From Oxalobacteraceae bacterium (GTDB lineage: Bacteria > Pseudomonadota > Gammaproteobacteria > Burkholderiales > Burkholderiaceae_D): a stretch of DNA of 64,000 bases. The stretch covers positions 1-64,000 of the forward strand of contig JABTBR010000023.1 of NCBI GenBank assembly GCA_013284265.1, given 5' to 3'. Below the pieces are notes generated by a model, which did no database searches, was not told where the DNA came from, and was given only the letters and a program-made list of their open reading frames with translations. Of this stretch, positions 37,948-41,583 are shown in pieces (within the stretch, counting starts at the first letter, position 1; each line of letters begins with the position of its first letter). The translations under genes were made by a program, and so were the position numbers.

Positions 37948-38367
37948 ATGTCGCCTGCGTTACCGTTCCCCATCCGCAAAGAATGTCCGCCCGGCGCCTG
38001 TGTCTGCGGGCGCGCGGACTTGCTCGACACCTGGGAACTGGCGCCCGACACCGATATCGCCATCCTGCGCCTGACGCGCGATCAGGAGCTGCGGCTGATC
38101 GCAAGAATCGAGACGATCAGCAGCTACGACGAACTGGGCCGGATAGCCCGCAAGCTGGAGGAGCAGTTGGGCGTCTCGCTGAACATCTGGCCCGGTCCGA
38201 ACGAGGTACGCACCGTGCGCGGCCTGGTGATACAACTGGGCGAGCGCCCCGGCCTGTGCAAGAAAACCCGCCAGGAAATTCCCGCCGCGATCCGGCGCTG
38301 CCTGGACCGCCATCCCGAGATCGTGTTCGCCATCCTGAACGCGCACGATCTACTGGGCTCGGCCTGA
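37948..38367 (+). CDS. Conserved hypothetical protein with N-terminal Cys cluster
   Basis: A 139-residue protein not assigned to a named family. It opens with PFPIRKECPPGACVCGRADLL, whose three Cys could bind a metal. A helical middle (LTRDQELRLIARIETISSYD) and a basic end (CKKTRQEIPAAIRRCLDRHP) follow, closing with EIVFAILNAHDLL. There is no signal peptide or membrane helix. The sequence looks like a compact real domain rather than a shadow frame. The ribosome site is weak. It precedes the monooxygenase fusion gene by 100 AT-rich bases. Confidence 0.65.
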   Translation: MSPALPFPIRKECPPGACVCGRADLLDTWELAPDTDIAILRLTRDQELRLIARIETISSYDELGRIARKLEEQLGVSLNIWPGPNEVRTVRGLVIQLGERPGLCKKTRQEIPAAIRRCLDRHPEIVFAILNAHDLLGSA

Positions 38368-38408
38368 ATGCCATTTCATTACAAATGTCCAAATTAATAA
38401 TTAATTAG

Positions 38409-38437
38409 TTGCAAAATCATTAATCAATTGCTATTGT
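38409..38437 (+). promoter_or_regulatory. Candidate promoter of the monooxygenase-NagB fusion gene
   Basis: TTGCAA (38409-38414), a 17-base spacer and TATTGT (38432-38437) match four of six consensus bases each. They lie in a markedly AT-rich stretch in an otherwise GC-rich window. The dyad TTAAT-A-ATTAA (38394-38404) sits just upstream and could be an operator. Confidence 0.45.
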
Positions 38438-38467
38438 CACAAAGTTAATGCCAATAGCTATGGAGTA

Positions 38468-40621
38468 ATGATGAAGAAACTGACAGGAAAGCCCCGCCGC
38501 GCAGGCGTCCTTGCGACCCTGATTGTCGGCGCGGGTCCGGGCGGCATCGGCCCCTTGATCGCCGCGCGTGGCAACGGCCGGCTGGACGAATTGATGGCGG
38601 GCGGACTGGGCATCATCGACCAGGGCGAGCGCGCCGGCGTCGGCGAACTGGGGCATTACGCGATCCGCTCCGACAGCTTCGCCGACAGCTTCCTGGCTCC
38701 GCTGGGCGTGGCCGCCCAACCCTCGTTCGCCGGACTGCTCCAGCACGGCCCGGGCGCACAGCTCGAGCGCCAGCGCGGCGGTCCGGCGGCACTGGCCACC
38801 GTGGCCGATTTCATGGGCGAGCTGAGCGCCTCCCTGCGGCAATGGCTGAGCACACACAGCTACGATCCCTTCATCGGCGCCACGCGCGCGCTGCGCGCGC
38901 ATCGCCAGCACGACGGTAGCTGGCTGACCGACTGCAGGCATACCGACGGCAGCAGCCTGTCCTTCCGCAGCAAGACGCTGGTGCTGGCCACCGGCGCGGC
39001 GCAGTCGCGCGCGGCGCTGGCGCAATTGCCGGTGGCCGGACAGCCGCTGCTGCCGCGCTTTGCCGGCAAGACCATGCTGTCGGGCGAACTGCTGGGCCAG
39101 GGCGGCGCGGCCCTGCTGGCGGCGCGGCTGCGGGGCATCCAGCGGCCACGCATCGTCATCGTCGGCGGTTCGCACAGCGCGATGTCGAGCGCGCTATTTT
39201 GCCTGCAACACAATGACGGCGCCGGCCAGGGCGCGGCCGCCGTGACCATCCTGCACCGCAAGCCCTTCCGCATTACCTACCGCACGCCGGACGAAGCGCT
39301 GGCCGAAGGCTACACCGACTTCGGCGCGCAGGACATCTGCCCGCGCACCGGCCGGGTGTTCCCGCTGGCGGGTATGCGCAGCGATTCGCGCGAGCTGCTG
39401 CGGCGCTGCTGGGGACTGGGCGGCAGCGTGCGCGAAGCGCGCCTGCGCCTGCACCAGTTGGCGGTGGAACGCGACGACGAAGCCAGCACGCTGCTGGAAC
39501 AGGCCGACCTGATCGTGGCGGCACTGGGCTACCGGCCGCGCGCGCTGCCGCTGTTCGACGCCGCCGGCCAGGCCATCGCACTGCAGGCGCACAGCGGCGA
39601 CGCCGCGCTGGTCGATGACCGTAGCCGGGTACTCGATGGCGGCCGCAGTCCGGTGCCGGGGGTGTTCGCGCTGGGCCTGTCGGCCGGCTTCCCGCTGGCC
39701 GGCGTGTATGGCGAGCCGAGTTTTTCCGGCCAGGCGAATGGCCTGTCGCTATGGCATGGCGACGTCGGCGCCGGCATCGTCGACCAGGTGCTCGAACAAC
39801 TGCGCACACCGGCAGCGCCCCGCGCGTCCGGCCCCGAAGCCGCTGCCGCGCCCTTATCGGGCCAGGCCGCCACCGGCCTGCCCTGGTTCCACGGCGCCAG
39901 CCACCGCCTGCTGGTGGCAGACACCGACAGCGTGGCGCGCCAGGTGGCGGCGCTGCTGGTGAGCCAGTTGCGCGAGGTACTGGAACACAAGGTACAGGTG
40001 GTGCTGGTCCCTTCGGTCGGCCGCACCTTGCAGCGCGCCTACGAAATCCTGCGCGGCGAGTACCGCGAAGCGCTCGACTGGGGCCGGGTGGTATGCGTGC
40101 AGATGGACGAGTATGACGGGCTGGCCCCGGGCGATCCGCGCAGCTTCGCGTTTGCCTTGCGGCGCGACCTGGTCGCGCCGCTCGGGATCGGCAGCTTCCT
40201 GCATTTTTACGACGCCGCCGGCCGGCCCGCGGGCACCCCGCTGGACTATGAGGAACGCTTGCGCGCCCTGGGCGGGATCGACTGCGCGCTGCATGGCGTG
40301 GGCCGCAATGGCCACATCGGCTTCAATGAGCCGCGCAAGCGCGCCCAGTCCGGCAGCGCCGTGGTGCGCCTGCGCGCCACCACCCGGGCCGCCAACGGCG
40401 TGGCGTTTCAGTACGGCGTCAGTCTGGGACTGGGGCTGTTCCGCGAAGCGCGGCGCTCTATCGTGGTGATGCTGGGCGCGGAAAAGCGCGAGGCCGCCCA
40501 CGCCCTGCTGTTCGGCGCGCCGGGGCCGCACAATCCGGTGGCCGAGCTGCGTCATTGCCCCCAGCTGCATGTGTTCCTGGACCATGCGGCGGTGCCGCTC
40601 GGCCTGGACTCGGCGCGCTAG
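38468..40621 (+). CDS. Fusion of flavin monooxygenase-like and NagB-like domains
   Basis: A 717-residue two-part protein. Residues 1-445 form an FAD/NAD(P)-binding module like SidA/IucD-type N-hydroxylases: LIVGAGPGGIG (FAD, 18-28), LVLATGAA (171-178) and VIVGGSHSAMSS for NADPH (230-241). After a Pro/Ala linker, residues 475-717 resemble glucosamine-6-phosphate deaminase: VQMDEYDGL (544-552, catalytic D547) and VGRNGHIGFNEP (611-622). The residue matching D141 of E. coli NagB is N614; H616 and E621 remain. The usual TGGTP phosphate loop reads SVGRTL. An amino-sugar or sugar-phosphate oxidation is conceivable but not shown. Of two adjacent ATGs the second (38471) has better spacing from GGAG. 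Its stop overlaps the convergent channel gene. Confidence 0.8.
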   Translation: MMKKLTGKPRRAGVLATLIVGAGPGGIGPLIAARGNGRLDELMAGGLGIIDQGERAGVGELGHYAIRSDSFADSFLAPLGVAAQPSFAGLLQHGPGAQLERQRGGPAALATVADFMGELSASLRQWLSTHSYDPFIGATRALRAHRQHDGSWLTDCRHTDGSSLSFRSKTLVLATGAAQSRAALAQLPVAGQPLLPRFAGKTMLSGELLGQGGAALLAARLRGIQRPRIVIVGGSHSAMSSALFCLQHNDGAGQGAAAVTILHRKPFRITYRTPDEALAEGYTDFGAQDICPRTGRVFPLAGMRSDSRELLRRCWGLGGSVREARLRLHQLAVERDDEASTLLEQADLIVAALGYRPRALPLFDAAGQAIALQAHSGDAALVDDRSRVLDGGRSPVPGVFALGLSAGFPLAGVYGEPSFSGQANGLSLWHGDVGAGIVDQVLEQLRTPAAPRASGPEAAAAPLSGQAATGLPWFHGASHRLLVADTDSVARQVAALLVSQLREVLEHKVQVVLVPSVGRTLQRAYEILRGEYREALDWGRVVCVQMDEYDGLAPGDPRSFAFALRRDLVAPLGIGSFLHFYDAAGRPAGTPLDYEERLRALGGIDCALHGVGRNGHIGFNEPRKRAQSGSAVVRLRATTRAANGVAFQYGVSLGLGLFREARRSIVVMLGAEKREAAHALLFGAPGPHNPVAELRHCPQLHVFLDHAAVPLGLDSAR

Positions 40622-41583
40622 CCCGGATGGGCGACGGCGCCGGGAACGCCGGTGGCGTCGCTGCCGTCGGGGATGATGTCGTGGAATTTGCCGAAGTCGA
40701 GGATGCGCACATCGCCTTCGACCTTGTCGGACAGGATGTCGGCGAAGTGATGCGCAAAGAAGATATGCTCGGCGGCGTAGCTCTGGCGCGCATGCACGAA
40801 ATCGTTGAGCGTATCGTCCATGCCGGAGATGGCCACCGACAGCGTCACGCCGTCGTCATGCAGATCCTGCTGGGTCTTGCCCCACAGCGGGCTGGCCTGG
40901 TCGATCGGGTGCATGATGGTCCAGCTCAGGGCGAACACGCCGGTCTGGTCGCGCTCCAGCGTCAGATCGTAGAAGCGGGTAAACAACTGGCCTTCGAGCG
41001 TGGTCTCGCGGCGCACCAGCGAGGCGCGCACCGAGGCTTCGATGATCAGGTTACTGCGCTCGTTACCGGCGCGCAGCATCAGCGTGGGCACGCCGTTGAA
41101 GGGGGTGATCACGGCAAAATCGGAAAACAGGATGCGCGAGGTGGGGCGCGAAAACCGCGCGAACAGCAAGCCGGTGACCGCGGCCACTTCGACCATGCCG
41201 AGCAGGATCTCGGCCGAGGCGACCAGGTGCCCATAGGTCGAGCCGGGATTCATATACCCGTAGCCGACCGTGGCCAGCGTCTCGATCGAAAAGAACACCA
41301 CGTCGAGGAAGGAATCGGGACGCGCGTTGGCGACCGAACCGGGCACCGCATAGAAGGCGGCGGCGAACAGCAGATTGGTAAACAGATACAGCGCGCCGAC
41401 CAGGGCGAAGAAGCGCGGCCAGCTCAGCGTGAGCATCCAGTGGTAGGCATCGCTCCAGTACCAGCCGCCGGTGCCGACGCGGCGGATGCGCGAGTTGCCC
41501 ATCCTGAAAGTGCCCCGTTCGGCACCCACGCGCGGACGCGGCGCCATCGGCTGGGCGGCTGCCGCACGCTTGCGCTGGCTCAT
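40618..41583 (-). CDS. Inward rectifier potassium channel (KirBac type)
   Basis: A 321-residue inner-membrane channel. Two membrane helices (about 60-82 and 118-142) flank the pore loop with the selectivity filter TLATVGYGYMN. The C-terminal cytoplasmic immunoglobulin-like domain (about 155-300; SNLIIEASVRASLVRRETTL) has the Kir pattern SWTIMHPIDQASPL. Bacterial Kir channels pass K+ and are gated by lipids and ligands. It starts seven bases after the def stop, so it may be the last gene of galU-def-kir. Its stop codon shares the palindrome CTAG with the stop of the convergent fusion gene. Confidence 0.93.
   Translation of the reverse strand: MSQRKRAAAAQPMAPRPRVGAERGTFRMGNSRIRRVGTGGWYWSDAYHWMLTLSWPRFFALVGALYLFTNLLFAAAFYAVPGSVANARPDSFLDVVFFSIETLATVGYGYMNPGSTYGHLVASAEILLGMVEVAAVTGLLFARFSRPTSRILFSDFAVITPFNGVPTLMLRAGNERSNLIIEASVRASLVRRETTLEGQLFTRFYDLTLERDQTGVFALSWTIMHPIDQASPLWGKTQQDLHDDGVTLSVAISGMDDTLNDFVHARQSYAAEHIFFAHHFADILSDKVEGDVRILDFGKFHDIIPDGSDATGVPGAVAHPG

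Follow-up and report, generated by a model that had tools for sequence, protein, structure and literature searches.

Two groups of described enzymes resemble the two halves of the gene reported here: the flavin-dependent amine N-hydroxylases of the SidA/PvdA/IucD type (PF13434) and glucosamine-6-phosphate deaminase (NagB). To our knowledge, the flavin N-hydroxylases that act on amino sugars belong to another fold class, that of the acyl-CoA-dehydrogenase-like nitrososugar synthases. A search of PMC papers found no description of a flavin N-oxygenase family such as the one outlined below, or of the fusion architecture.

We analysed a stretch of 64,000 nucleotides from an Oxalobacteraceae bacterium (assembly GCA_013284265.1, contig JABTBR010000023.1, positions 1 to 64,000), here called the window. 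It carries a gene in which a flavoprotein half is fused to a NagB-like half. The flavin half has the fold and the FAD and NAD(P)H motifs in common with the SidA/PvdA/IucD enzymes, but it is only 12–18% identical to N-hydroxylases in Foldseek alignments, has no PF13434 match and reads ALGY at the site of the ATGY motif, which we take to be an N-hydroxylase hallmark. Its substrate is expected to differ from theirs. The second half shares the fold and the catalytic motifs of NagB, but differs from it in low identity (20–27% in structural matches), in missing the equivalog cut-offs, in a phosphate loop that reads VGRT and in its fusion to a flavoprotein.

A single reading frame joins the two halves

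The first-pass annotation had described an FAD/NADPH module joined through a Pro/Ala linker to a NagB-like module in a single frame. This was borne out: the frame encodes 717 amino acids without an internal stop, and the motifs could all be located (Table 1), with MDEYDGL at residues 546–552 in the C-terminal half. PF07992 matched residues 18–280 (E 8.2e-8; 32.4 bits, just above the cut-off of 26.1), and PF01182 matched residues 485–695 (E 2.2e-15; 57.6 bits, cut-off 27). Since each half has homologues at 57–65% identity in two genomes of the same genus, the fusion is not a chance open reading frame. Compared with Duganella rivi, the differences per first, second and third codon position were 0.247, 0.226 and 0.435 in the flavin half and 0.306, 0.227 and 0.463 in the NagB half. 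In both, second positions differ least and third positions most, a pattern as expected under purifying selection. Because no in-frame ATG, GTG or TTG occurs between residues 442 and 482, a start of its own just before the NagB domain is not evident. Full-length alignments put the separate NagB rows in the wrong place, so the two halves were modelled apart.

Table 1. Position of the fusion gene, its parts and its upstream region in the window
Feature	Position	Strand	Basis
Whole fusion gene, 717 aa	38468..40621	+	ATG start, one frame without internal stop
FAD/NAD(P)H half, residues ~1–450, N-hydroxylase-like fold	38468..39817	+	PF07992, AlphaFold, Foldseek
GAGPGGIG, FAD dinucleotide motif, residues 21–28	38528..38551	+	Sequence and 93-row alignment
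GGSHSA, NAD(P)H dinucleotide motif, residues 233–238	39164..39181	+	Sequence and 93-row alignment
Pro/Ala linker, residues ~451–474	39818..39889	+	Stop and start codons here in both relatives
NagB-like half, residues ~475–717	39890..40618	+	PF01182, AlphaFold, VIA
VGRT loop, residues 517–520	40016..40027	+	Alignment; same in both Duganella relatives
DEY, residues 547–549	40106..40114	+	Alignment to 2bkv/2ri1; invariant in 4 aligned rows
GRNGHIGFNEP, residues 612–622	40301..40333	+	Same in 2bkv; GRNAHIGFNEP in 2ri1
AT-rich region upstream of the fusion gene	38368..38467	+	27% GC

An AT-rich promoter region had also been proposed. The composition stands, with the 100 bases upstream well below the 64% GC of the window, but a scan of 38300–40750 found no sigma-70-like site. 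The small gene further upstream (37948–38367) has a Cys-rich start, ECPPGACVCGR, and no Pfam match above cut-off. A search of 40 genomes of the same genus found a match to it in every one, so its presence is not tied to the fusion. On the other side, a gene for an inward-rectifier (Kir-type) potassium channel (40618–41583, minus strand) lies tail to tail with the fusion, its stop codon overlapping the fusion's end.

The two genes are separate and adjacent in Duganella relatives

The same two genes were found separate and adjacent in D. rivi, where they overlap by ATGA, and in D. sacchari, where four bases separate the TAG from the presumed ATG start. At this boundary the window gene lacks the stop codon, and the Pro/Ala linker bridges the halves. 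Separate adjacent genes of unrelated roles had been named beforehand as the finding that would speak against a joint function; the genes are indeed separate, but because they are so tightly spaced we argue for linked roles.

The arrangement is rare. Among 60 genomes searched, the flavin half matched in three, the window's own and two others, all of the same genus, and a fourth matched the NagB half only, at 30% identity. Within the family, the pair of FAD and NagB-like genes occurred in 3 of 392 genomes (E ≤ 1e-20), namely those of the window, D. rivi and D. sacchari, and a class-wide search of 369 genomes with the three Duganella flavin halves matched the window alone. With the two others being of the window's genus, the window is probably a Duganella as well. 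The fused form was seen in one genome only, both relatives having two genes, and the fusion event looks recent. In the two relatives the pair lies near, but not at, the window's genomic place. Four relatives without the pair were inspected; in two of them (L148 and L151) that area still contains genes which, judged by eye, are topoisomerase-like, porin-like and transporter-like. Inspection of the surroundings of the Duganella copies showed no sugar-pathway or glycan genes, nor did the fusion have any visible pathway neighbours within the window.

The flavin half resembles N-hydroxylases in fold

The annotation had assigned the first half to the SidA/IucD type, which holds for the fold only. 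PF07992 was the only Pfam family to match the flavin half of the window gene; neither PF13434 nor PF13454 did so at E ≤ 1. PF13434 matched none of the 46 rows of the flavin-half alignment at E ≤ 0.001 and 3 of the 11 rows of a diverse homologue set at E ≤ 0.01; some distant homologues exceed its cut-off.

The AlphaFold model of this half, built from the 46-row alignment, had a mean pLDDT of 87.2. A Foldseek comparison with the PDB listed first the amine N-hydroxylases EtcB, putrescine N-hydroxylase, SidA and PvdA together with DiatB, a flavin monooxygenase (E 2.8e-13 to 1e-12). Rows 1–34 were all N-hydroxylases or DiatB, with TM scores by query of 0.41–0.55, and the superpositions were loose (rmsd 8–12.6 Å across the N-hydroxylase rows among these). 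The first rows of VIA-align were other flavin monooxygenases and bacillithiol disulfide reductase (Z 25.1–24.1), and the N-hydroxylases followed at Z of about 20–21, among them PvdA with Z 21.2 and an rmsd of 4.8 over 347, below the other flavin monooxygenases. By both programs the flavin half has the two-nucleotide-binding-domain fold of the N-hydroxylases.

In the alignment of 93 flavin rows, G21, G23 and P24 occur in 91, the remaining two being gapped there. Identical in all 93 are G57, G176, G233, S237, A238, R264, D289, C291, G302, G354, Y355, G403, L404, G407 and E416; R264 lies downstream of GGSHSA. At the ATGY site, all three Frb/NRPS rows have T, compared with 5 of the 79 core rows. 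A thioredoxin-reductase-type enzyme was ruled out by the absence of CxxC from the flavin half, and a match to an FMO-type pattern (FAGLLQH) was discounted, as its position differs from where the FMO fingerprint presumably lies. Taken by fold and context the flavin half looks like an N-hydroxylase, yet by sequence it falls outside the SidA/IucD/PvdA family.

The NagB-like half keeps the catalytic sites of the deaminase

That the second half is of the NagB type, as first annotated, was confirmed by the PF01182 match, by alignment with 2bkv and 2ri1 and by VIA, which superimposed it on glucosamine-6-phosphate deaminase 3hn6 with Z 30.2 and an rmsd of 2.2 over 239 residues. The best AlphaFold model had a mean pLDDT of 88.0, the five models ranging from this value down to 41.1 with an alignment of only 4 rows. 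A 6-phosphogluconolactonase was ruled out, NagB folds ranking first and the best lactonase reaching Z 25.6 and the pgl model 33 bits against a cut-off of 124.45. The TIGR00502 equivalog gave 76.3 bits against 236.9, and the other listed NagB models likewise stayed below their cut-offs.

In alignments with 2bkv, 2ri1 and the two Duganella relatives, the catalytic DEY, HxxFNEP, Arg and Lys sites are kept, although the Arg aligned in 2bkv only, 2ri1 having no Arg there. We take DEY to be the catalytic-base motif of NagB, and the roles of the other sites and the E. coli numbering are likewise assumed from NagB. An Asn stands at what is presumably an Asp position in E. coli NagB, and it is found in the solved deaminases 2bkv and 2ri1 too. 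A TGGTP-type phosphate loop is lacking: at the position that we take to be equivalent, each of the three Duganella proteins has VGRT, and a NagB row from a viral contig (L095) has ATGSTP. Because of the altered loop, the substrate may be something other than glucosamine-6-phosphate itself.

When 398 genomes were searched with a profile of the three NagB halves, the matches elsewhere, in 5 genomes, were only of ordinary strength for NagB (E 6e-26 to 6e-28). Viral contigs held two NagB relatives and no relative of the flavin half that we could find. In each of the three Duganella genomes the only PF01182 protein is the fusion or the NagB-like partner. Both the window's genome and D. rivi have a GlcNAc operon in which NagA (by TIGR00221) adjoins a SIS-type deaminase candidate, with a kinase and a regulator (the last three labelled by reading their translations). 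Because this operon has its own deaminase candidate, the fusion is probably not a catabolic NagB and probably not needed for GlcNAc use, and we set that role aside.

The flavin family is partnered with sugar aminotransferases

To survey the flavin family, one genome per species was scanned for 84,980 species, which gave 139 pattern matches and from these 130 relatives, of which the best 80 were kept. In 78 of these best 80 loci the flavin protein is paired with a DegT/StrS sugar aminotransferase, mostly by fusion: 72 are DegT-FAD and one FAD-DegT fusions, three were scored as separate neighbouring genes in the order DegT, FAD and two in the order FAD, DegT. The other two loci, with FAD and NagB-like genes, are the Duganella pair. 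One of these five (L022) is probably a fusion as well, since a different count places its DegT and FAD within a single frame. Of the 78 DegT copies, 77 have the lysine motif in the form SxHATK and one has it as SMQATK. The best model for the DegT halves was DesI, the dTDP-4-dehydro-6-deoxyglucose aminotransferase, at 142 and 160 bits against a cut-off of 650.

A GT2 glycosyltransferase lies directly next in 73 of the 80 kept loci, within 400 nt in 71 and overlapping the match end in 2; a weaker GT2 match stands about 1.75 kb further on in another two, and none was found in five. GT2 aside, the most frequent cluster of neighbours was shared by no more than 18 loci out of 80. The compact unit of DegT-FAD and GT2 is common in Sphingomonas and its kin, in varied surroundings (L010, 12762–16330; L015–L094). 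Like the window gene, the DegT-FAD fusions of Sphingomonadaceae join the flavin half (38–45% identical) to a sugar-amine enzyme. They differ in that this partner is a PLP aminotransferase, usually followed by a GT2, whereas the window has a NagB-like partner and no glycosyltransferase after it.

A plasmid search found two homologues at 40–43% identity, each joined to a DegT/StrS aminotransferase, with the order of the halves differing between the two. One is a single FAD-DegT protein on a Granulicella plasmid, and the annotation of both names an aminotransferase only. With a broader profile, 398 genomes of the phylum yielded 12 matches at E ≤ 1e-12, the window included. Among the other 11 genomes, three encode DegT and FAD in a single open frame adjoined by GT2, six have an adjacent DegT (four by Pfam, two by near-identical translations) and in two no nearby DegT was found, so that a DegT partner occurs in 9 of 11 genomes, some of which may share species with the 80 kept loci. 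In four genomes of the same class, the genes for FAD, DegT, a polysaccharide-flippase-type protein and GT2 are consecutive, the last two being called by Pfam in one genome and by look-alike translations in the other three. Some loci of the family are surrounded by polysaccharide genes. This, together with the GT2 next to so many of them, indicates activated amino sugars. In a tree of 35 rows, those from Duganella group together (100/99) next to the DegT clade, but the join between the two has no more than 80/59 support, and the distant rows are long branches.

Proposed function and alternatives

We propose that the fusion is a two-module sugar-amine enzyme, in which the NagB-like half would handle the amine of a phosphorylated amino sugar and the flavin half would N-oxygenate that amine; we hold this reading with about as much trust as doubt. 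The NagB-like half would interconvert a ketose phosphate and ammonia with a 2-amino sugar phosphate, or catalyse a close analogue of this reaction. The flavin half would be an NADPH/O2-dependent class B monooxygenase that converts the amine to a hydroxylamine or a more oxidised product. In favour of this reading are the Foldseek ranking, the absence of CxxC, the DegT and GT2 partnership of the family, the context of distant homologues and the kept NagB sites. Against it stand the missing PF13434 match, the loose superpositions, the order of the VIA-align rows, ALGY at the ATGY site, the altered phosphate loop, the surroundings of the Duganella copies, the two phylum genomes in which no DegT was found nearby and the probable difference in substrate between the two types of pairs. 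In the wider family the partner would make a sugar amine with PLP, and the adjacent flavin half would oxygenate it. Because the flavin half is usually kept next to a PLP enzyme that makes an amine, amine oxygenation would be the simplest common step. In Duganella the NagB-like half would replace the aminotransferase, using ammonia instead of an amino donor, or would run the opposite way. DegT enzymes use nucleotide sugars and the substrates of NagB are sugar phosphates, so the two types of pairs probably differ in substrate.

Computation shows the two halves, their folds, the kept catalytic motifs, the occurrence of two separate adjacent genes in the nearest relatives and the flavin family's partnership with sugar enzymes that make amines. 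We infer that the oxidation takes place on nitrogen and not elsewhere, and likewise infer which way the NagB step runs, what the substrate is and what the product is used for. A single pathway acting on an amino sugar, as the annotation had suggested, agrees with the partnership, while its substrate, direction and product belong to the inferred part. For the family as a whole, our tentative view, held with somewhat less trust than doubt, is that the flavin proteins and sugar aminotransferases, or in Duganella a repurposed NagB, make N-oxygenated amino sugars, mostly for glycans.

The flavin half could also act on carbon, as a dehydrogenase or oxidase that converts a ring alcohol, or an amine to an imine or ketone, with the partner adding or removing the amine and no N–O bond being formed. 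Ketone formation followed by transamination would explain the DegT partner equally well, and both the sole Pfam match to PF07992 and the disulfide reductase among the top VIA-align rows are in line with this. We nevertheless consider carbon oxidation rather unlikely, as N-hydroxylases are the best Foldseek rows, some distant homologues reach past the PF13434 cut-off and the two-domain FAD and NAD(P)H layout suits a monooxygenase, as does the invariant Arg264 in the role that we would assign to it.

Glycosyltransferases next to most of the kept, DegT-partnered loci, some of them within polysaccharide clusters, argue against a catabolic or detoxifying pair. In such a pair the flavin half would oxidise an amino sugar phosphate that the cell does not want, after which the NagB half would strip off the nitrogen as ammonia or hydroxylamine. 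The deaminase candidate next to NagA also argues against it. We judge such a pair improbable, even though NagB in cells normally runs in the deaminating direction, the fusion is its genome's only PF01182 protein and the Duganella copies have no glycan genes in sight beside them. Still less probable, to the point of being very doubtful, is an accidental fusion of neighbouring genes with unrelated roles. It would account for a fused form confined to one genome with two genes in both relatives, but the tight pair is kept in both of these, the two halves show the pattern of purifying selection and the flavin family joins sugar aminotransferases in both orders.

The DegT-linked family occurs in many Sphingomonas species and also in acidobacteria and further proteobacteria. 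If the proposed N-oxygenation is true, it would extend the chemistry of bacterial sugars by N–O bonds, which could be tested on a single protein in the form of the Duganella fusion. This little-noticed flavin family, usually partnered with enzymes that make sugar amines, hints at unusual N-oxidised sugars.

The surroundings of some distant homologues recall the FR-900098 pathway

The distant flavin homologue in Shinella lies within an NRPS cluster, those in Rahnella and Priestia lie near aminotransferase/nucleotidyltransferase fusions, and acetyltransferases also occur near distant homologues. Together with the DXP reductoisomerase in Priestia this recalls the FR-900098 pathway, the likeness being one of gene context. 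According to PMC7347517, FrbG of that pathway hydroxylates the amine of aminopropylphosphonate within a CMP conjugate, and a figure legend there names the N-acetyl compound for FrbG; two further papers describe FrbH as a cytidylyltransferase/decarboxylase (PMC8976061; PMC6697681).

On Priestia megaterium plasmid pBM700 (L014, 7503–15607), two ATP-grasp genes, a flavin N-hydroxylase-like gene, an AAC(3)-type acetyltransferase, a nucleotidyltransferase-aminotransferase and the DXP reductoisomerase form what looks like an FR-900098/fosmidomycin-type phosphonate cluster. On a Rahnella sikkimica plasmid (L013, 11914–21561) the flavin gene stands beside a nucleotidyltransferase-aminotransferase and a CDP-alcohol phosphatidyltransferase, a possible phosphonolipid-like cluster. 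Tistrella mobilis pTM3 (L107, 4430–10418) carries a 34% identical flavin homologue in an unannotated cluster, whose neighbours, judged by eye, are cysteine-synthase-like, HMGL-like and ATP-grasp-like genes and adjoining MFS-like genes.
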